The translations under genes were made by a program, and so were the position numbers. From NCBI GenBank assembly GCA_030913385.1, contig CP133159.1:4815001-4879000 (forward strand): a stretch of DNA of 64,000 nt. Reading direction: 5' to 3'. Positions 43,053 through 57,516 of this stretch are shown here, one piece after another. Position 1 is the first letter of the stretch, and the number at the start of each line of letters is the position of its first letter. The notes below the pieces were generated by a model. That model saw only the letters and a list, made by a program, of their open reading frames with translations. It searched no databases and was not told the origin of the DNA. The stretch is from Cytophagaceae bacterium ABcell3 (GTDB lineage Bacteria > Bacteroidota > Bacteroidia > Cytophagales > Cytophagaceae).

Positions 43053-45689
43053 TCAATCACTCAATGGGTTCCGGTCATATATATGCACCCAACCTTTAAG
43101 CGTTTTTACTTGATCTTCTTTCCGCAAACGCCTTCTATACGTAACTTCGGCACTATAATAGTAAACTCCTTCTTTTAAATCATACCCTTCGAAATTCTTC
43201 CCATCCCAATCTAAGTTTATATTATCATTACTACTGTAAACAAGCGCTCCCCAGCGATTATAAACATTGAATAGCACGCTTTCTACATTTAACGGCTCTG
43301 ACAAAGGAACAAAAAAGTCATTATATCCGTCGTTGTTCGGGGTAATAAGGTTTGGCAGGTCATACCCTACGCAGAGGTCTACACAAACTTTATTGCTCTT
43401 AGCTCCCTCCATACCATAATAATTGACTGCCGATATGGCATAGCACCCCGCAGTAGAAACTGTATCTATATGCCGAAAATACTCATCCTGAACATCAGCA
43501 ATATGTTCCAGCTCTTCATCTTCGTGAGGAGCAAAGTAGACTTTATAACCATAGCTTTCGGGCAAACAGTTTTCTTCCACAGAAAGCGTCCAGTACAAAT
43601 CGTTGTAATCAATATCCCTTTCGGCGCAGTTCAACCCTTCAAGAACTGGCGGGCAAGGCTCTATTGAGTCACGAGGTATAATACATACCTCCTGCGAGGT
43701 ATTGTAATAAATATCTGTAAAGATTTCTCGGCAATATTCACCCACAGTTTCAACATAATAACAAACCGTATCATCGTTTTGCAGACCAACATCAACATAG
43801 CTTCCAGCGTCTCCTGCATGCATTAAACTATCATGCAAACTAAACGATTCACCATTTACACTCCGGTATATTCTGTGATAAAAACCAGAAGTATTCCAAG
43901 GCACATCATATTCCCAACTAAGTATAGCCCTTTCATCTCCTGGCGCCCCTTGCAACCACACTGACGAAGCCCGTTCAGACCGCCCTAGGTATTCCCCACC
44001 GTTATGATAAAAATCTACCCGGTAACTATAAGCCATAGTAGCATTGTCCACCACATCTACAAAGGTGGTGTCATCGATATCGTTTGCCGTATGAATATGG
44101 GTATATTCTTGCCCGTCTATTCCTTCAGTTCTATAAAGCCTATATTCAAATGCGGGTTCTCCTGTAAGAGCAGGAGGTTTCATCCACCTGACCGTAATTT
44201 CACCAGCAAGGCTATCTGTCAAATTTACCGATACATTTGAAAACAAAGGCTCATCAGGAATCAAGCCACCACATACTTCTTCTGAAGGGAAACTCCGCCC
44301 AGCACCAGGATCTGGAAACTCTGCAACAATTACATAACAGTACTCAGAACCCTTGTTCAACCCTTCTCCCCTATTAGTATCAGTCCATGAGGTTGTTCCA
44401 ATAGGCACACGCCCTACCATCCTAAATCCATTATTTTCCAAAGAATAGTCGTCGCACGGTTCCAACTCAACACCTGGGTCGCACTCTTTCCTATAAATAG
44501 CCATTGCCCTCGCATCAGGGCAGGAGTAATCATCCCATTCTAGGAGCATTTCCCTACCTTCAGGAGTAGTTTTCAAACCAGTAGGTTCAGGGCCATAGAC
44601 AAAAATTTGCCAAGTTTTCATATCCACAAGCCTTACACTATTGCCACCAGGTATATCTTCAGCCTTAAACAATACATGATAAGGTTCTTTGCGGACATGC
44701 CCGCAGGTAGTTTGCCACTCAAAATCTCCTGTGGCAATAGGGAGCTGAGAACCTGAAGCAGAAAACGATGCCCTGTCTGAAAAATCTTGTAAATATATAC
44801 CGCTTACAGAACTAAGGTTTATTCTATGTCCATCGGGGTCATCTGCTTCAATTACCCTTTCAAGTTTTTTTCCAGCAACCAAACAAGTATCTTCAGGAAT
44901 AACCAGTTCAGGTTTTCTATTTCTATTATTAATTACTTCTATTTGCATATCCCGCACGATATGACTGATCCGTTGCCCGTCCCTCCACTCTTCAATCAAA
45001 AAAGCCACATTATAAATACCAGGTTCTGCAGGGGCGTCCCACACTAAATCACCTGTTACAGGGTCTAAGTTCAAGCTGCCGCCACCAAAAGCAGGATCGT
45101 TAGGATCGCGATAACCAGGGGCATTTACGCCAGGCCCCATGCGAGGTATGGTCATACGATAAGAAATGCTATCGCCGTCAATATCGAACGCACCGGGGTT
45201 ATGAATAAAGGTTTCGCCTACCACTGCACGGTCTATAGGAGGGTTCAATAAAACCGGTGTATTGTTTACGCCCATAAAAGGGTTAATACTAATGGCTGTC
45301 TGCAGGTAAAGCTCTACTCTTTCAGAATTAGAAATATTGCGGATACCAGCATTTCTGTAAATTTCAACAAAACTTACACGATAATTTCCAGCCGCACCAT
45401 AAGTATGCTCAACAACATAAGTTCTTCTTTCCGTATCGTTACCTATATTGACAGTAGACCTTACATTAACAGTTCTGGTAGTCCCATCCCCAAAGTCAAA
45501 ATCGGCAGTCCTTTGATCGATTCCAGAAGATATTTTAAGGTATAAGGTAAGTGTAAATCTAAAGGTCAAACTATTCTCCGAAACCCGCTGGGCCGTAATT
45601 TCACCTGCCCTTATATGACTGGCATGCAAGGCTGTAGAAGCGCCTATAAGCAACAACAAAGCAAGTAAGTATTTAATCTGAGCGTTCAT
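43053..45689 (-). CDS. Large exported gliding/adhesion-type protein with CHU_C (T9SS type B) C-terminus
   Basis: This 878-residue protein has a signal peptide (MNAQIKYLLALLLLIGASTALHA). PKD/cadherin-like domains follow at about 25-270, then several fibronectin III-like modules from about 365 to 700. The C-terminal CHU_C domain contains LPNLITPNNDGYNDFFVP, VFNVYNRWGALVYSS and LKEGVYYYSAEV, a type IX secretion signal. It is likely a cell-surface or secreted adhesin. A terminator follows. Confidence 0.88.
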   Translation of the reverse strand: MNAQIKYLLALLLLIGASTALHASHIRAGEITAQRVSENSLTFRFTLTLYLKISSGIDQRTADFDFGDGTTRTVNVRSTVNIGNDTERRTYVVEHTYGAAGNYRVSFVEIYRNAGIRNISNSERVELYLQTAISINPFMGVNNTPVLLNPPIDRAVVGETFIHNPGAFDIDGDSISYRMTIPRMGPGVNAPGYRDPNDPAFGGGSLNLDPVTGDLVWDAPAEPGIYNVAFLIEEWRDGQRISHIVRDMQIEVINNRNRKPELVIPEDTCLVAGKKLERVIEADDPDGHRINLSSVSGIYLQDFSDRASFSASGSQLPIATGDFEWQTTCGHVRKEPYHVLFKAEDIPGGNSVRLVDMKTWQIFVYGPEPTGLKTTPEGREMLLEWDDYSCPDARAMAIYRKECDPGVELEPCDDYSLENNGFRMVGRVPIGTTSWTDTNRGEGLNKGSEYCYVIVAEFPDPGAGRSFPSEEVCGGLIPDEPLFSNVSVNLTDSLAGEITVRWMKPPALTGEPAFEYRLYRTEGIDGQEYTHIHTANDIDDTTFVDVVDNATMAYSYRVDFYHNGGEYLGRSERASSVWLQGAPGDERAILSWEYDVPWNTSGFYHRIYRSVNGESFSLHDSLMHAGDAGSYVDVGLQNDDTVCYYVETVGEYCREIFTDIYYNTSQEVCIIPRDSIEPCPPVLEGLNCAERDIDYNDLYWTLSVEENCLPESYGYKVYFAPHEDEELEHIADVQDEYFRHIDTVSTAGCYAISAVNYYGMEGAKSNKVCVDLCVGYDLPNLITPNNDGYNDFFVPLSEPLNVESVLFNVYNRWGALVYSSNDNINLDWDGKNFEGYDLKEGVYYYSAEVTYRRRLRKEDQVKTLKGWVHIYDRNPLSD

Positions 45690-49504: not shown

Positions 49505-52294
49505 TTAATAACAGATCATTTTTTTAGTAATATTGATCCCCTCCCCCGACAAGCGATATAAATAAGTGCCAGTTTGTAGCCCTGGGCTGTTGAATTCAAA
49601 TTCATGCTCCCCTGCACTTACCGTTTGATCAGCAACTACACCAACTATCTGCCCAAGCATATTGAGTACTTCCAAACGTACATGCTGAGGCTCTTCTAAA
49701 CTGACCTTAAAGGTTGTATGACCATTGAATGGGTTCGGATAGTTAAATATATTAGCATTTTTGACCACCACTTTCTTCTCCCGGTTTCCTACAATAGCTG
49801 GCTCCTTATTGATTAACACATAGTCGTGTGTTTCTCCATAGGGATAATACCCACAAGCTGCAACTTCACCTGACACATACTCCGTCTCCCAGCAAATAAT
49901 TCGCATACCTAAAACTTTTGCAGTGGCATTAGGGACTCTTACCGTCGTTGTATAGGTTGTTTGAAAATGAGACAGGTTTGGAGATGTACTGACTAATTCA
50001 TCGTGATCATTATAAACACCGTCTCCATTCCAATCGATATAAACCTTTACCCTTCTAGAATAATCATTTTGACAACTAGCTAAACCAACCTCTAATTCTA
50101 TTTCTTGTCCATGGTAAACTTCGGCGAACTCATCATAAAAATCAGAGTAAGTCCTACAGTTGTTATTTAAAGAGGTATTTATATCCCCAAATTTAACACT
50201 GTTAATAATCGCATCTTCATCAGATATTGCCCTTGAGTTACAGTATGGGTGAATAGCATAAAAAATATGCTCATACTCGGCAGTTCCCGCAGCGTTTGTT
50301 ACAGCCAACGTACCTATCGGGTCGTTATAAGGAATAGTTGCCTCAATTGTATTTTCTGACAAAACATTGAAGTACGCTTCGTTTCCATTAAAGGTCACCG
50401 AAGTAATACCATTAAAAACGCCTTCTATTGTCACCTTACTCCCCCTTACACCCATAGCAGGTGAAACAGAAGTAATTTCTGGCACAGCATCTACAGGCCC
50501 TGAACCTATTCGCAAAGTATAATCTTGCGTCTCCCCGTAGCTATAATTGCCGCAAGCACTGACATCCGTGTCGTGCGCGTGTTCCCAAACAATTACCCTC
50601 ATTCGAACCCGGCTATTAGGAACAGCATGCTCGGGGACATCAATCATAGAAGAAAAATCGCTGCCAGACGACAACTCCCCTGTTTCAACAACTAGCTCGC
50701 CTTCATCCCCAAAATCAAAATTGTTATTCCAGTCGACATAGACTTTAATTTTTTGGCTATTGCTTAAACCACATGTTCCAGTATAAACCCCCAGTTCAAA
50801 AGACTCATATACTTCATTTACCAAGCTGGAATTATCCGTATATGTCCTACAGTTCTCGGAAAAAGAAGTATCCAAACTACCACCTATTGTCACCCTTTGA
50901 ATAAGAGAATTCTGTTCATTGCTAGCCTCAGACACACAATATTGTTGACGTTCGTTAGCTTCCATCCCATCATGGAACATTGCTCCGCTATTAACAGGGT
51001 CTAACCAATCCATCAAACGACGATATGTGATTCCGCCACCATTCCAGGAAACGTAAAACTTTCCATAATAGTCCACTCCATCGGCACGGGAACAAGAGGC
51101 CGTACCACCATAAAGCTGACCAATAATTCGGTGGTTTTCATCAAAAAGAGGGGCTCCTGAGGAACCAGCTTCTGTAGTAGTATTTCTGTCCCATTGTACC
51201 TCCCACATATCAGGATATCCAAGATGTTCTCCATCTGCAGGAGAGTCATCGAATGAAATCTTTTTAATATCTCCAGAAGGGTGGTGAATGCTTACCGTAC
51301 TGGAAGGAGCAGTCTTTTCTCTAGACCAGCCAGCATAAAACACATTATAATGTTCCGGCGCCTTGGAGTTCATTTCTAAAAGCAGAAAATCTGACACCTC
51401 GTCTCTAGCTTTTAGACTAGCACCAGAAACGGTATAATTTGAAGGTCCATCCTGATCGCTACAATCAGGACTTTCATAATTAAAAGCAAATACCCAAGTG
51501 GACACATCTCCACCAGAAACCAAACAGTGGTCTGCTGTCAATATATAGGGCGTACCATCATTGGCTGTATTGTTGATCAAGGCACCACTGCATAAACCAC
51601 CACCAGCCAGAACTAAAGAAACAGCCCTCTTTTCTTTTTCCCAATCGGCACCATCAGGACAATTAACATTCATGTTACAATCACCCGAATCCCCAAACCC
51701 TCCAAAAGATTTCATCTTTGTAAAAACATCTTCAAAAGCATGAATTACCTGCCCTACAACTAACTGTCCTTTGCCTGCTACATTGGCAGGTTCATAGTAT
51801 TCAAGATATATCTCTTCCCCACTCACAGGCATAATGCCTAACTTACCATCATCTTGATTTATTCTACTGGAAAATGCGCCAAGCACCTCAGACCTGTCGG
51901 CATTATAGATAAATAGAGAGGCTCCCTCAGGAAGTTTATATTTACTAAGGATCAAGTTAATAGAAAAGGCTCCTTCGGAGCGTATACCTAACCTCCACAA
52001 CCGATCTCCATTGGGTAAGGAAGTCCATTCTCCTGCATCTTCCAGCCCCTTCTCCAATTTCAGCGAATGCCCAAATTGATAATATTTGCCTTTGCCGAGT
52101 TTTCTTGCCTCAGCTTTCACCTTTTCAACATCAAATTTCGGCATGTTTATAACCGGTACATTTGATGACTTTCGGGCAAAACTATTCCTAAGGCTATAGG
52201 GCTCGCCACCTTCACTTATTTGACCAAAAGATTTGGTACCTAGAAAAAAAATTGTGCTAAAAACAAAGCAAACGACATAAAGCTTATTCTTCAT
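49505..52294 (-). CDS. Exported Lys-C-like serine protease with GEVED, TIG and T9SS type A domains
   Basis: This 929-residue protein has a signal peptide (cleavage near residue 25), a propeptide, and a trypsin-fold domain at about 205-440 with the complete triad: His256 (TADHC), Asp302 (SDFLLLEM) and Ser379 (GSSGAP). That organisation matches lysyl endopeptidases. Two GEVED domains (DWNNNFDFGDEGE, DWNGDGVYNDHDE) flank a TIG/IPT domain, and a Por-type C-terminal sorting signal (NYPNPFNGHTTFKVSL...GTYLYRLSGE) ends it. It is secreted by the type IX system, perhaps surface-anchored. Its larger paralogue follows at 52441. Confidence 0.88.
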   Translation of the reverse strand: MKNKLYVVCFVFSTIFFLGTKSFGQISEGGEPYSLRNSFARKSSNVPVINMPKFDVEKVKAEARKLGKGKYYQFGHSLKLEKGLEDAGEWTSLPNGDRLWRLGIRSEGAFSINLILSKYKLPEGASLFIYNADRSEVLGAFSSRINQDDGKLGIMPVSGEEIYLEYYEPANVAGKGQLVVGQVIHAFEDVFTKMKSFGGFGDSGDCNMNVNCPDGADWEKEKRAVSLVLAGGGLCSGALINNTANDGTPYILTADHCLVSGGDVSTWVFAFNYESPDCSDQDGPSNYTVSGASLKARDEVSDFLLLEMNSKAPEHYNVFYAGWSREKTAPSSTVSIHHPSGDIKKISFDDSPADGEHLGYPDMWEVQWDRNTTTEAGSSGAPLFDENHRIIGQLYGGTASCSRADGVDYYGKFYVSWNGGGITYRRLMDWLDPVNSGAMFHDGMEANERQQYCVSEASNEQNSLIQRVTIGGSLDTSFSENCRTYTDNSSLVNEVYESFELGVYTGTCGLSNSQKIKVYVDWNNNFDFGDEGELVVETGELSSGSDFSSMIDVPEHAVPNSRVRMRVIVWEHAHDTDVSACGNYSYGETQDYTLRIGSGPVDAVPEITSVSPAMGVRGSKVTIEGVFNGITSVTFNGNEAYFNVLSENTIEATIPYNDPIGTLAVTNAAGTAEYEHIFYAIHPYCNSRAISDEDAIINSVKFGDINTSLNNNCRTYSDFYDEFAEVYHGQEIELEVGLASCQNDYSRRVKVYIDWNGDGVYNDHDELVSTSPNLSHFQTTYTTTVRVPNATAKVLGMRIICWETEYVSGEVAACGYYPYGETHDYVLINKEPAIVGNREKKVVVKNANIFNYPNPFNGHTTFKVSLEEPQHVRLEVLNMLGQIVGVVADQTVSAGEHEFEFNSPGLQTGTYLYRLSGEGINITKKMICY

Positions 52295-52440
52295 GGAATA
52301 ATTGGGATAATATCATTTTAAAGATATGGAAATTATTTAAAGAACGTAAAGGCAACAGTAAATTTTGTCCTGTATATAAACTTCTTAAGAGTTTTTTGTT
52401 CACCTTTAGAACCCAATAATTTCCATATCAACGTTAAGCA

Positions 52441-55400
52441 TTAATACTTAACGATTTTCCCAACATAATCCACATCTTCGCCAGTTAGTTTATAAATGTA
52501 AGTACCGGCAGGCAAAGAGTTGCCATTAAACTTATATAAGTGCTCACCGCTGCCCAGTTGCTGGTCAAATACTACAGATACCAATTCTCCTAAAACATTA
52601 TGTATTTCCAGTTTTAAGTGCTGCCCTTTAGGAGTGGCTATTTTAAAATTAGTAATATCATTAAAAGGGTTAGGGTAAGAAGTAACAGATACATTATTGC
52701 TGATTTGTCTATTAGCAGACATAATCTCGTCAATAGAAATAGTATAGTCTTGTGTTTCCCCGTGAGGATAACGGCCACACGGCTGAATTACATCTGGGTT
52801 ATCAGTTTTGACACAGACAATCCTCATTTTTGTTTCACCGAGTACAGCATCTTCCGGCACTTCTATTGAACCTTCAAAGAAGTCGTCAGTAGACATAGTA
52901 CCCGTAAAAGCCGCTTCTTCATCTTCCGTAAATACTTGGTCGCCATTCCAATCTATATATACTTTAGCCATGCTGTTCCTTTCAGCCCCACATGAACCCA
53001 GTGCAATATAAGTATATACATCATCGCCCTGTCGCACTTTTATAGGCTCATCTTCTACAAAGCTTTGGTAAGATTTACATTCTCCTAAAGAAAAGTACTC
53101 CATATCGTCAAAGCGGAAAACAGAAACAATAGAATAATCATCCTGAATAGCTTCAGACATACAATATTCTTCTATAGTAAAATCATCGTAAGAGTCAGAG
53201 CCCATATCATTGACCACGGTTATAGGTGCAGTTACATTCTGGGGAGCAGTAACAGATAAGGATGAAGAAGTCTGGCTCTCTATTTCAACAGCCACCCCTC
53301 CAAAATAAACGGTAGATACATTTTCAAAGTTACTGCCCGATATCACAACACTAGTACCAGATGCAATACTTTCAGGAGACACCGATTCAATTTGAGGGAA
53401 ATCTTCTGATGAAGAAACGATATTTACAGAATAGTCTTCTGTTTCTCCCCAGTTATACTCGCCACAAGCACTAACAGAAGCCAATTCTGCCCCTTCTACA
53501 CATACCAGACGCATACGAGCAGTTCCTGTAACATCCAAGTCTTCAGGTATTGTTACTTCTAAATTGTATATATCCTGATTTGACTGCCCTGATGCCACAA
53601 GCTCTGCGACCTCATCAAACTCATGATTTTGGTCAAAATCTATATAAGCTTTTAGTGCATGATTTTCCAGACTTCCACAAGAATTTACCAACACCTGAAG
53701 ATGTAAAACCTGCCCAGGATAAACATTAGCTACATGGTCTGTAAAGTCTGTGTATACCGGACAATCGCCAGACTCGTTGTCAATAGTACCAAACAGCACT
53801 CGGTCTATTTTGGTATCGATAGAAGATGAGGCCTGGCTGACACAATAATTTTCAATTCGAAAGACTGAAGATTCGCCACTACCAGCGGGGTTGGTAACAA
53901 TTACAGGCCCCGTACTTGCACCCGTTGGAACCTCTACAGTAATTCTGGAATCAGACTCCACGTTAAAAACCGGTGTAACAGCCCCCCCGAAAGATATAGA
54001 AGTGATGGCTTCAAAGTTTTCACCTTCCAGTGTCACTAACGTACCAGGTTCTCCTGCCTCAGGGGAAATAGAAGTGATAACAGGAGCGTCACCTGTATAC
54101 TCTTTGACATCTAAAATATAGTCTTGTGTTTCTCCAAAAGCGTAAGAGCCACATGGATCAACTTGGCCTCCTCCCGCCGATTCCCAACATACAACCCTAA
54201 GACGCACAGGTCGGGAAGTAGATGCTTGGTCAGGTATAGTCAAAAATGTGCTGAAGGTACCTTCCGCTTCATAAGGAGGAGAAGTTGCAACGATTTCCCC
54301 TGGGCCATCAAAAGAACCATCAGCATCCCAGTCTGCAAAAATCCGAACCCGTTTGGTATAATTTTCCCTACAAGCGCCTACAGAAACTTCGATTGGCAAA
54401 GTTTTACCTTTATAGGTCTCTTTAGGCATGTTTGTAAAATCCGAATATCCCCTACAATTGTCGCCAAGCCGGTTTGTAAATGAGCCAATGGTAACACTAT
54501 CTATCCTAGCACCACTATTACTATTAGGACTTGAAGTGCAATAACTAGGCACAAAGGAAAAAACACCTTCGGAAGTACTTGTGCCTGCAGGGTTACCCAC
54601 AGAAATCGTCCCTTCTGTATCACCTTCTGGCACTACAGCTCTAATTTCACTATCAGAAACAACTGTAAAAGAAGCGGCTTCAATACCATTGAAAGTAACG
54701 CTGGTAATTGATTCAAAAGAACCAACAATGGTAACCTGAGTACCAGCAGTTCCGCCTTCTGGAGAGAAAGAAGCGATAACAGGCGCTTCGCCAGCAGCAA
54801 AATCTACGTCAGACTCTCCAGCGCCTGCTGGGTTATGCACTGCTATAGGACCGTAAACATCTCCATTCGGAACTATAGCTCTTACTTCTTCAGAAGAAAT
54901 TACTTCATACGATTCAGCTTCAACTCCATTGAAAGTGACACCATTAACCATTTCAAAAGATCCTAAAATTGTCACTTCATCTCCAGGAAAACCGTTTTCT
55001 GGAGAAAAAGAAGAAATAACAGGAACGTCCCCTTCAAATTCGTTTACTTGAATAGAATAGTCACGCGTTTCACCCCAGTTATAAGAATCGCATGGCCCCA
55101 AATCAGACATACCACTTGACTCCCAGCAAATAATTCTCATTCTAACAGGGCGTGCTGTTACGGCACGATTTGGCACCTCTACAAGCAAATCAAAAGTACC
55201 TTCACGGCTAAAAACGGGAGAAACACCCAGTTCTTCGCCTTCATCTTCAAAATCACCATCTCCATTCCAGTCCACAAAAACTTTAACCATTTTATTATAA
55301 TGTTCATCACATGCCCCTACTGAGACCGAAAGTTCTTGAGACGCTCCATATTCCATTTCGTTGACAAGATGCGTATTGTTAGAATAACGTCTACAGGAGC

Positions 55401-57516
55401 TCGACAAAGCCTCACTAATATCTCCAAATTCCACATGGGTAATTATTGCGCCATTAGAAGTAGTAGCCATAGAGGTACAGTAAGCAGGCTCAAAAGAAAA
55501 AATATCATCAGACAATACAGTTCCAGCGGGATTCTTTATGGCAATATGGCCTCCTTCAAATCCACTAGGAACCGTAGCCAACAATTCCGATTCGGAAACA
55601 ACAGTAAAAGAAGCGGGAATATCACCAAAAAGCACCTCTTGAATAGCCCTAAATTCACCAGTAATAGTTACTTCATCTCCAGGTGCCCCACTTGAAGGAG
55701 AAAAATCAGAGATTACAGGCACATCACCTTCGTATAAAACTTCCAATGAAAAGTCTTGTGTTTCACCTCTTTGATAAATATCACAAGGAGAAACATCTTC
55801 ATCCAGTTCAGATTCCCATGTAACTACCCTCATACGGAATACAGCCCCCTCCTCAACATCTTCAGGTACTGTAAAAGATAAAGCAAGAGGAGAGCCGCCA
55901 TCTGTCTCTTCTGATTCCGCTACCAGCTCCCCTTCATCATCAAAGTCGAAATCCCGGCTCCAATCAACCCATACTTTAACCTTTCTTGCCCGATCATCAT
56001 CGCAAGAAGCCGTGACAACATTTAGGTTCAGTTCTTCATCTGGAACAATAGACAGTTTGGTATCAGTAAAATCAGAATATTTTCTACATACAGGGTCTTC
56101 CGATGCTAAACTATCTTCTCCTACCACCACCAAATCAATGCGAGCACCATCCTCTTCAGCAGCCTCCGAAACACAATAATTCCACTCAGGCTCTCCTGAA
56201 GCATCCAGCCCGTCTAAGTACTCAGGATCCGCACCAACAGGGTCAAGCCAATTTTTCAACCTTGAGTTATCAGTACCGCCCCCTTCCCAGGACCTGTTAA
56301 ACTTTCCAAAAAACTCATAGCCGTCTTGATTGTCACAGCTAGAATGTCCCCTTCTCAATTGACCTATGATACGTTGATTCTGATCAAAAAGGGGAGCGCC
56401 AAGAGACCCTGTTTCAGTAACTGTATTTCTGTCCCACTGCACTCGCCATTCATTCTCATCTGAGTCATAAACAGAGTTGTCGTCAAAAGATATTTTTTTC
56501 ACATCTCCCTGAGGGTGATGAATACTGGCTGTACTGGTAGCCAAAGAAGAGGCACGTGACCACCCGGAGTAGTAAGTGTTATAATCTTCCGGAGGTGCGG
56601 AATGCATTTCCAATAAGGCGAATCCAGAATAAGCAAAATTTGCCCTTAGCTCTGCCCCTGATATTGACTGGGCAACCGGGCTATCGTTACCATCACACTC
56701 TGCACTTTCAAAATTAAAAGCAAAAACCCACCCAGAAACAGAGCTACTGCCAATCATACAATCATTGGCTGTAAGGACCAATGGTTTTTTATCCTGAGCG
56801 GTATTGTTAACAAGTGCGCCACTACAAAAGCCACTACCGGTTACAATTAAGGCTACAGACCTCTTCTGCTTCTCCCACTCTTCACCATCCGGACAATTTA
56901 CGTCCATATTGCAATCGCCAGACTGTCCAAGCCCATATGATTTCATGATAGGCATGATATCCTCGAAGGCATGCACAACCTCACCAATGACCAGCTCACC
57001 CTGTCCAGCACTTTCTGCAGGTTCAAAATATTCAATTACCACTTCCGAACCATTTACAGGCATGGTACCCAACATACCATCAGGCTGGTTATTTTTAGAA
57101 GTAAAAGCACCTAGCACTTCAGACCGGCTAGCGTCGTATATAAAAAGCTTTCCGCCTTCAGGCAGTTTGTACCTACTAAATACCAAATTAATAGCGAAAG
57201 CCTGTTCAGAACGTATCCCAACCCTCCATATCCGATCGCCATTTCCAATATCTTCCCAAAGACCAATCTCGTCCAAACCCTTATTAAGCTCCAAAGAATG
57301 GCCAAATTGATGATATTTCCCTTTACTGTTTTTCTTAGCTTCTTCCTGTACAGCCTCTATGTCAAAAGCAGGCATAGTGACATAGGGAACTTTGTTAGTT
57401 ACTTTCAATCTATCGCTAAAGCTTAAAGGTTCACCACCTTCGCTAACCTGCCCCATAGCAGTCTCTACACAAAAGATCATGGTCAGAAGAAGTAAACAGT
57501 AAATTCGATTAATCAT
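52441..57516 (-). CDS. Giant exported pseudoprotease paralogue with repeated GEVED/TIG modules
   Basis: This 1691-residue paralogue of the neighbouring protease has a signal peptide (residues 1-22) and a trypsin-fold domain at about 200-435. All three catalytic positions are replaced: TANDC has Asp252 in place of His, YSGFALLEM has Gly298 in place of Asp, and GSLGAP has Leu372 in place of Ser. Structural Cys pairs and surrounding sequence remain conserved. Five GEVED modules and several TIG/IPT domains follow, then a type A sorting signal (YPNPFNDITNFKIATP...GTYIYKLTGED). It probably binds a ligand, substrate or matrix rather than cutting. Confidence 0.85.
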   Translation of the reverse strand: MINRIYCLLLLTMIFCVETAMGQVSEGGEPLSFSDRLKVTNKVPYVTMPAFDIEAVQEEAKKNSKGKYHQFGHSLELNKGLDEIGLWEDIGNGDRIWRVGIRSEQAFAINLVFSRYKLPEGGKLFIYDASRSEVLGAFTSKNNQPDGMLGTMPVNGSEVVIEYFEPAESAGQGELVIGEVVHAFEDIMPIMKSYGLGQSGDCNMDVNCPDGEEWEKQKRSVALIVTGSGFCSGALVNNTAQDKKPLVLTANDCMIGSSSVSGWVFAFNFESAECDGNDSPVAQSISGAELRANFAYSGFALLEMHSAPPEDYNTYYSGWSRASSLATSTASIHHPQGDVKKISFDDNSVYDSDENEWRVQWDRNTVTETGSLGAPLFDQNQRIIGQLRRGHSSCDNQDGYEFFGKFNRSWEGGGTDNSRLKNWLDPVGADPEYLDGLDASGEPEWNYCVSEAAEEDGARIDLVVVGEDSLASEDPVCRKYSDFTDTKLSIVPDEELNLNVVTASCDDDRARKVKVWVDWSRDFDFDDEGELVAESEETDGGSPLALSFTVPEDVEEGAVFRMRVVTWESELDEDVSPCDIYQRGETQDFSLEVLYEGDVPVISDFSPSSGAPGDEVTITGEFRAIQEVLFGDIPASFTVVSESELLATVPSGFEGGHIAIKNPAGTVLSDDIFSFEPAYCTSMATTSNGAIITHVEFGDISEALSSSCRRYSNNTHLVNEMEYGASQELSVSVGACDEHYNKMVKVFVDWNGDGDFEDEGEELGVSPVFSREGTFDLLVEVPNRAVTARPVRMRIICWESSGMSDLGPCDSYNWGETRDYSIQVNEFEGDVPVISSFSPENGFPGDEVTILGSFEMVNGVTFNGVEAESYEVISSEEVRAIVPNGDVYGPIAVHNPAGAGESDVDFAAGEAPVIASFSPEGGTAGTQVTIVGSFESITSVTFNGIEAASFTVVSDSEIRAVVPEGDTEGTISVGNPAGTSTSEGVFSFVPSYCTSSPNSNSGARIDSVTIGSFTNRLGDNCRGYSDFTNMPKETYKGKTLPIEVSVGACRENYTKRVRIFADWDADGSFDGPGEIVATSPPYEAEGTFSTFLTIPDQASTSRPVRLRVVCWESAGGGQVDPCGSYAFGETQDYILDVKEYTGDAPVITSISPEAGEPGTLVTLEGENFEAITSISFGGAVTPVFNVESDSRITVEVPTGASTGPVIVTNPAGSGESSVFRIENYCVSQASSSIDTKIDRVLFGTIDNESGDCPVYTDFTDHVANVYPGQVLHLQVLVNSCGSLENHALKAYIDFDQNHEFDEVAELVASGQSNQDIYNLEVTIPEDLDVTGTARMRLVCVEGAELASVSACGEYNWGETEDYSVNIVSSSEDFPQIESVSPESIASGTSVVISGSNFENVSTVYFGGVAVEIESQTSSSLSVTAPQNVTAPITVVNDMGSDSYDDFTIEEYCMSEAIQDDYSIVSVFRFDDMEYFSLGECKSYQSFVEDEPIKVRQGDDVYTYIALGSCGAERNSMAKVYIDWNGDQVFTEDEEAAFTGTMSTDDFFEGSIEVPEDAVLGETKMRIVCVKTDNPDVIQPCGRYPHGETQDYTISIDEIMSANRQISNNVSVTSYPNPFNDITNFKIATPKGQHLKLEIHNVLGELVSVVFDQQLGSGEHLYKFNGNSLPAGTYIYKLTGEDVDYVGKIVKY

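Follow-up and report, generated by a model that had tools for sequence, protein, structure and literature searches.

What does a protease domain do for a bacterium once the whole of its catalytic triad has been replaced? The question is raised by one of two adjacent genes of Cytophagaceae bacterium ABcell3, which lie in a 64,000-nucleotide stretch of contig CP133159.1 (positions 4,815,001 to 4,879,000 of the forward strand) that was analysed as a whole and is called the window here. We refer to the pseudoprotease gene, which occupies exactly 52441-57516 on the minus strand (1,691 aa; ORF list, Pfam and NCBIfam scans), as PSE and to its neighbour with an intact triad (49505-52294, minus strand, 929 aa; ORF list) as ACT. 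A first-pass annotation had described PSE as a giant paralogue of a Lys-C-like protease and had proposed that it is under selection for binding rather than cutting.

Layout of the gene pair

The products of PSE and ACT are 47% identical overall and 56% identical over their first ~440 aa, and both have Pfam matches to Trypsin_2, GEVED, TIG and a T9SS sorting domain. ACT consists of a Lys-C domain, a GEVED-TIG-GEVED series and a T9SS sorting domain (Pfam, NCBIfam, alignment). In PSE, whose features are all given here as positions on the minus strand, a hydrophobic N-terminus that was recognised by eye and is presumed to be a signal peptide (aa 1-24, 57445-57516) precedes a prodomain-like, beta-rich region that is also found in ACT (aa 25-196, 56929-57444; alignment and AlphaFold2 model). 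In the alignment to the PDB Lys-C, aa 197 corresponds to the start of the mature enzyme, and it opens the Lys-C-like domain without catalytic residues (aa 197-440, 56197-56928; phmmer matches to 4nsy and 1arb, and the fold comparison given below). The remainder of the protein is a long modular tail.

Loss of the active site

The PSE and ACT domains align with the Achromobacter protease I and Lys-C sequences of the PDB at E values of 1e-40 to 1e-48. The triad of these enzymes (H57, D113 and S194 of Achromobacter protease I, in a numbering counted on the printed alignment) is represented in ACT by His256, Asp302 and Ser379, and in PSE, according to the alignments, by Asp252 (codon 56761-56763), Gly298 (56623-56625) and Leu372 (56401-56403); the three swaps, which had originally been read by eye, proved to be exact when the residues were looked up. 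The His-Asp-Ser triad of the Lys-C-type endopeptidases is absent from PSE, and inspection by eye near the lost residues revealed no apparent relocated catalytic residue (Ser371 adjoins Leu372, and a nearby motif reads AND for ADH).

Two more active-site residues of PSE depart from the family consensus in the alignments. The change G389R (codon 56350-56352) falls at Gly211 of Achromobacter protease I, which presumably sits on the substrate-binding strand, and D401E (codon 56314-56316) places Glu401 at the position of Asp225, which we take to be the residue that specifies lysine at S1; a literature search for Asp225 of lysyl endopeptidase found no paper. In the alignment to Lys-C, the equivalents of His210 and Gly211 are both Arg in PSE. 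These substitutions bear on the proposal that the dead domain might serve as a decoy, binding protease inhibitors or substrates and thereby sparing ACT. In its favour, the fold and much of the surface are common to PSE and ACT, and Glu in the place of Asp225 leaves the pocket with an acidic residue. In chymotrypsin-like enzymes, however, the Gly211-type strand pairs with the substrate backbone, and Arg at both the His210 and the Gly211 positions makes the usual binding of substrates in the cleft unlikely, which leaves the decoy model as an improbable one.

The losses are concentrated in the active site. Among 59 columns that are at least 95% conserved in 70 named homologues (70 of the 72 non-redundant named rows were used), ACT differs in just one, a Ser to Ala change after the GSSG motif, and PSE differs in six, which are the three triad columns, Gly211 (Arg389), Asp225 (Glu401) and the same Ala as in ACT. 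The 53 columns kept in PSE include every structural column beyond the one with the Ala common to ACT. The conservation of cysteines claimed in the first-pass annotation is borne out by the alignment with homologues, in which all six cysteines of the mature domain (C202, C208, C231, C253, C274 and C394) are kept. A leave-one-out count shows between 0 and 7 differing conserved columns per homologue in the set of 70, and none for 30 of them; by this sequence count six changed columns are a high number and not a unique one, and the unusual part is the placement of five of them in the active site. All five PSE-specific changes belong to an 11-column active-site set among the 59, for which random placement has a probability of 9e-5, a value to be read as a rough guide since the set was defined after the changes had been seen. 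Judged by its residue content, the Lys-C domain of PSE is catalytically incompetent.

Predicted fold

For PSE, the structure prediction that the first-pass annotation had suggested for both domains as a check returned a confident Lys-C fold. AlphaFold2, run on aa 25-440 with a 72-row alignment, gave a mean pLDDT of 93.3 and a pTM of 0.92; the fold is a prediction, and the alignment behind it consists almost wholly of triad-keeping homologues. The model superposes on Lys-C 4nsy over 244 residues (Z 38.1, rmsd 1.6, 39% identity; Foldseek, VIA-align 2) and matches 1arb with Z 37.4, and the next fold reaches only Z 20.5. A pseudoprotease, as the term is defined in PMC10211241, is an enzyme fold without the conserved catalytic motif, and this combination is what the residues and the predicted fold of PSE present. 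Because the triad and two more active-site columns have been lost while the fold and the reading frame have been kept, PSE is, with high likelihood, a genuine pseudoprotease and not a decaying gene.

Duplication history and selection

In a tree of 132 domains, PSE and ACT are sisters (SH-aLRT 99) with end branches of similar length (0.53 for PSE and 0.42 for ACT), and the third paralogue of the genome joins them next (94). The sister placement identifies PSE as a lineage-specific duplicate. The third paralogue, which lies 2.5 Mb away and is 1,853 aa long, keeps the whole triad, and its modules are CUB and CARDB where those of PSE and ACT are GEVED and TIG. When it is taken as the outgroup, the protease domain has 39 unique changes in PSE against 17 in ACT (p 0.003) and the prodomain 24 against 14 (p 0.1). 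The faster change of PSE in the protease domain is a real acceleration, and it fits either relaxed constraint or a new role.

Synonymous differences between PSE and ACT are saturated (pS 0.77 and 0.85), so that dN/dS is not computable for the pair; pN is 0.31 and 0.25. About 20 stops would be expected in the 1,691 codons of PSE at just 0.1 neutral substitutions per site, and there are none. Values of pN far below the saturated pS, together with the absence of stops, indicate that neutral decay is not what happened. That PSE might be a pseudogene in ordinary decay, as the loss of all three catalytic residues and its faster evolution than its sister could suggest, is highly improbable given the open frame, the excess of pS over pN and the intact structural columns, and random decay was rejected on these grounds.

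Relaxed constraint represents a different scenario, in which catalysis became unnecessary and PSE has been kept mainly for its GEVED and TIG modules, with the protease domain persisting as a passive folded relic. The accelerated change of the protease domain and the substitution of several active-site positions rather than one are what might be seen in such a case, and the excess of unique changes over ACT fits this scenario as well as it fits the explanation that we prefer. Against this scenario, which we consider unlikely, stand the 53 of 59 conserved columns and the six cysteines kept after long divergence, the open frame, and losses that cluster at the active site instead of being scattered.

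The focus of the losses on the active site, the kept structural columns and the open frame make selection for something other than cutting the best reading and disfavour plain decay, and PSE is very probably a fold-keeping pseudoenzyme under selection. The part of the original proposal that stands is the loss of catalysis with the fold kept; the suggested roles of decoy, regulator of the neighbouring protease and surface adhesin are not told apart by any of the results.

Rarity of triad loss among homologues

To place the loss among relatives, we used a census of 220 distinct rows of at least 200 aa, in which identical or contained rows had been merged and shorter ones dropped. Three rows (L053, L080 and L056) are unreadable at one triad column at least, and His-Asp-Ser is kept in 214 of the 217 homologues that are readable at all three, in a set of loci that represents part of the matches (from the best 80 of 573 named relatives and from part of the 63 matching genomes of the order and the 153 of the class) and is biased to closer relatives. 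The exceptions are PSE, L210 (genome G641, contig C21) and L020 (genome G031, contig C125). L210 has Asn, Phe and Ile at the triad positions, a tail of CUB and fn3 modules (Pfam) and changes in 17 of the 59 conserved columns. L020, which comes from a 1.6-Mb genome, has Ser, Asn and Leu (the third being Val in another alignment) and changes in 16 of the 59 columns, and a Pfam scan of its frame gave no match. By these column counts, both are more worn than PSE.

In a tree of 195 rows, from which the long rows L020, L019, L081, L082 and L086 were left out, L210 has as its nearest row a paralogue from its own genome that keeps the triad, L209 (support 79); both belong to a group of four with support 97. 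A FastTree of 200 rows gives two as the fewest triad losses, as the long branches of L210 and L020 join in it, a kind of joining that is often false according to the program's own warning; in a tree without L210, L020 groups with rows of family f15. Such trees suggest that the triad has been lost independently at least twice, and probably three times.

No other genomes of the same genus were returned by the searches, and no orthologue of PSE was found in the 18 other genomes of the family. Of the 19 family genomes including the source, five match at 1e-5, the four non-self ones at 29-39% identity. In the order, 63 of 390 genomes match, and the best non-self match is 46% identical and has an intact triad; in the class, 153 of 395 genomes match at 1e-10, with non-self identities of at most 46% among the matches listed. 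The best 80 of the 573 named relatives are at most 48% identical to the PSE domain, in a collection from which the source genome or very near ones may have been left out. That the inactive state is maintained by selection may be suggested by the kept structural columns and frame of PSE, and it counts against the explanation preferred here that no orthologue in the searched genomes shows the dead state conserved in a second species.

Tail modules and predicted export

The tail of PSE, as delimited by Pfam and by comparison of modules, begins with the order found in ACT, GEVED-TIG-GEVED (GEVED module 1, aa 447-595, 55732-56178; TIG module 1, aa 596-678, 55483-55731; GEVED module 2, aa 679-826, 55039-55482), and continues as TIG-TIG-GEVED-TIG-GEVED-TIG-GEVED (two consecutive TIG modules, aa 827-991, 54544-55038; GEVED module 3, aa 992-1139, 54100-54543; TIG module 4, aa 1140-1223, 53848-54099; GEVED module 4, aa 1224-1368, 53413-53847; TIG module 5, aa 1369-1450, 53167-53412; GEVED module 5, aa 1451-1597, 52726-53166). 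The Pfam match to GEVED covers five stretches of PSE with 268.7 bits. The seven GEVED modules of PSE and ACT are 22-43% identical to one another and the six TIG modules 27-55%, and such low identities imply that the expansion is not recent.

The expansion itself, which the first-pass annotation had pointed out, is plain from the Pfam counts (five GEVED and five TIG modules in PSE, two and one in ACT), but as an argument for binding it is weak, since equally giant homologues keep the triad. The idea that a giant tail goes with a dead domain was rejected because the triad is intact in the third paralogue, in homologues from genomes G018 (open frame of 2,938 aa) and G015 (3,150) and in L209 (open frame of 3,675 aa); with such homologues in existence, a dead domain cannot be argued from the length of the tail. 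The tail is likewise no proof of a binding role for PSE, as ACT carries the same kinds of modules. The giant triad-keeping homologues had been missed in the first pass, as had the third paralogue with its intact triad and the two additional active-site substitutions.

PMC10952558 assigns GEVED to the stalks of fibrillar adhesins. An AlphaFold2 model of GEVED module 3 is a confident, beta-rich domain (mean pLDDT 91.8), and a fold search with it gave weak matches to RhoGDI/PDE6D-like beta-sandwiches (TMq 0.36-0.54 among the 50 matches listed). These matches name no ligand, which is a further point against a binding role, and they were too weak to be taken as an indication of function.

At its C-terminus PSE has a type A T9SS sorting domain (aa 1614-1691, 52444-52677) that scores 36.8 bits with TIGR04183, over the cut-off of 23. 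The genome encodes the T9SS sortase PorU (model NF033707, 1,455 bits, cut-off 420) and has 103 matches to T9SS sorting domains. A second pair of PorU-like matches (182 and 104 bits, under the cut-off) lies outside the window at G000:C1:2443988-2448841, in a 1,675-aa open frame, besides the main PorU. A further secreted protein, with a type B T9SS sorting domain, is encoded nearby at 43053-45689 of the window. Also outside the window, at G000:C1:1811174-1819196, four GEVED matches follow one another at intervals of ~2,610 bases. Their open frames have lengths of 808, 581, 339 and 810 aa, and every one of these frames also contains a match to the T9SS tail. Together they make up a tandem array of GEVED genes with T9SS tails, in which two members may be shortened.

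The gap between PSE and ACT and a possible partnership

PSE and ACT are adjacent on the same strand and 146 nt apart, and a scan of the gap found no promoter or terminator signal beyond those of shuffled sequences. An arrangement of this kind, and the prodomain kept in PSE, could mean that PSE is a regulator or partner of ACT: by binding ACT, or the ACT prodomain, it would control how ACT folds, becomes active or is placed. The bacterial precedent is the action of MamO on MamE (PMC4794232). In both of the two other genomes with a lost-triad copy an intact-triad copy is also present (L209 in G641, L030 in G031), but as many genomes have more than one copy, little can be read from the presence of an active one. 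A distance of 2.5 Mb separates the related third paralogue from the pair, and we know of no Lys-C enzymes that form oligomers. A regulatory role for PSE is considered unlikely. A Lys-Ser pair stands just before the mature Lys-C start in all three paralogues, and one idea would be cleavage of the PSE prodomain in trans by an active paralogue.

Much of the gap is filled by a perfect 15-nt inverted repeat, with arms at 52323-52337 and 52415-52429 and 77 nt between them, which as RNA folds better than shuffled sequences (z -2.95; 1 of 200 as good). It is present in one full copy in the genome, and the possibility that it is a repeated element was rejected; its sole Rfam match, MIR9486 (20.9 bits, cut-off 100), was attributed to chance.

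A proposed non-catalytic binding protein

Slightly on the favourable side of an even balance, in our estimate, is the explanation that PSE is a pseudoprotease which arose by duplication of a Lys-C-like gene and became a T9SS-exported, non-catalytic and adhesin-like binding protein of the cell surface or the extracellular space, carried on a GEVED/TIG stalk. According to this explanation, a Lys-C-like protease gene would have been duplicated, with ACT as the other copy, and the PSE copy would have lost the triad and two more active-site residues without losing its prodomain, its cysteines or its fold. Its product would then be exported by the type IX secretion system, with a series of GEVED and TIG beta modules bearing the dead protease domain, and, whether anchored or released, would bind something through the dead domain, the tail modules or both, possibly alongside ACT. 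That surface binding is the main role of PSE seems to us about evenly poised.

A more speculative extension, which we regard as doubtful, would treat PSE and ACT as a secreted active/inactive Lys-C pair, in which PSE, dead and stalked, would either capture extracellular targets rich in lysine or keep ACT at the cell surface. Such pairs might have arisen more than once in the Bacteroidota and relatives (as in this genome and in G641), and inactivated Lys-C domains might be recurring binding heads of T9SS cargo.

Comparison with known systems

PSE resembles the lysyl endopeptidases (Achromobacter protease I, 1arb, and Lysobacter Lys-C, 4nsy) in its predicted fold (Z 37.4 and 38.1), in sequence (36-39% identity), in its six cysteines and in having a prodomain before the mature domain, as the known enzymes do. 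It differs from them in lacking the catalytic His, Asp and Ser, in the replacement of Gly211 and Asp225, and in its long GEVED/TIG tail and T9SS sorting domain. The general kind of T9SS cargo with a protease called inactivated is already catalogued in NCBIfam as NF052323 (T9SS-dependent M6-like inactivated metalloprotease); that model describes a metalloprotease, and it matched just the shared sorting-domain end of ACT, far below its cut-off. Papers on inactivated metalloproteases in connection with T9SS were also sought, and none of use was found.

Other comparisons can be made with MamO and MamE, of which T9SS export and a GEVED/TIG stalk are not known to be part, with CspC, which has a subtilisin-type fold, and with HagA, which is not known to retain any protease domain where PSE keeps a folded, dead one. 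MamO, like PSE, is a bacterial trypsin-fold pseudoprotease beside an active homologue; it is described as being needed for MamE-dependent proteolysis, for which its own triad is not needed, and it works with MamE in a partnership that PSE and ACT might parallel (PMC4794232). Unlike PSE, MamO is reported there to be an HtrA-family protein that binds metal and has a TauE domain (PMC4794232). CspC of Clostridioides difficile is likewise a bacterial pseudoprotease, with a regulatory role, and differs from PSE in its involvement in spore germination (PMC6636752). The closest working likeness to PSE in its phylum is HagA of Porphyromonas gingivalis, a protease-related surface protein that is described as having adhesion domains in common with the gingipains RgpA and Kgp, no proteolytic activity, and a place in a surface complex with them (PMC11500903). 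The gingipains are cysteine proteases, unlike PSE, and the HagA-type adhesion modules belong to a different family from GEVED and TIG. With the CshA-type fibrillar adhesins PSE has in common the GEVED domains, which are used there in stalks (PMC10952558). It differs from them in that no NR2 ligand-binding domain was found upstream of GEVED in the Pfam list at E 1.

Among the titles and abstracts listed by searches of PubMed Central, none dealt with a pseudoprotease of the Lys-C family or with one among the serine proteases exported by T9SS, which is not proof of absence. Bacterial pseudoproteases with regulatory roles are already known, as MamO and CspC exemplify; PSE stands out for the clean, complete and localised nature of its catalytic loss and for the parallel case in G641. 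If its role is confirmed, bacteria with a type IX secretion system would be seen to make binding proteins from secreted proteases by either of two routes: loss of the protease domain, as in HagA, or inactivation of its active site with the fold kept.
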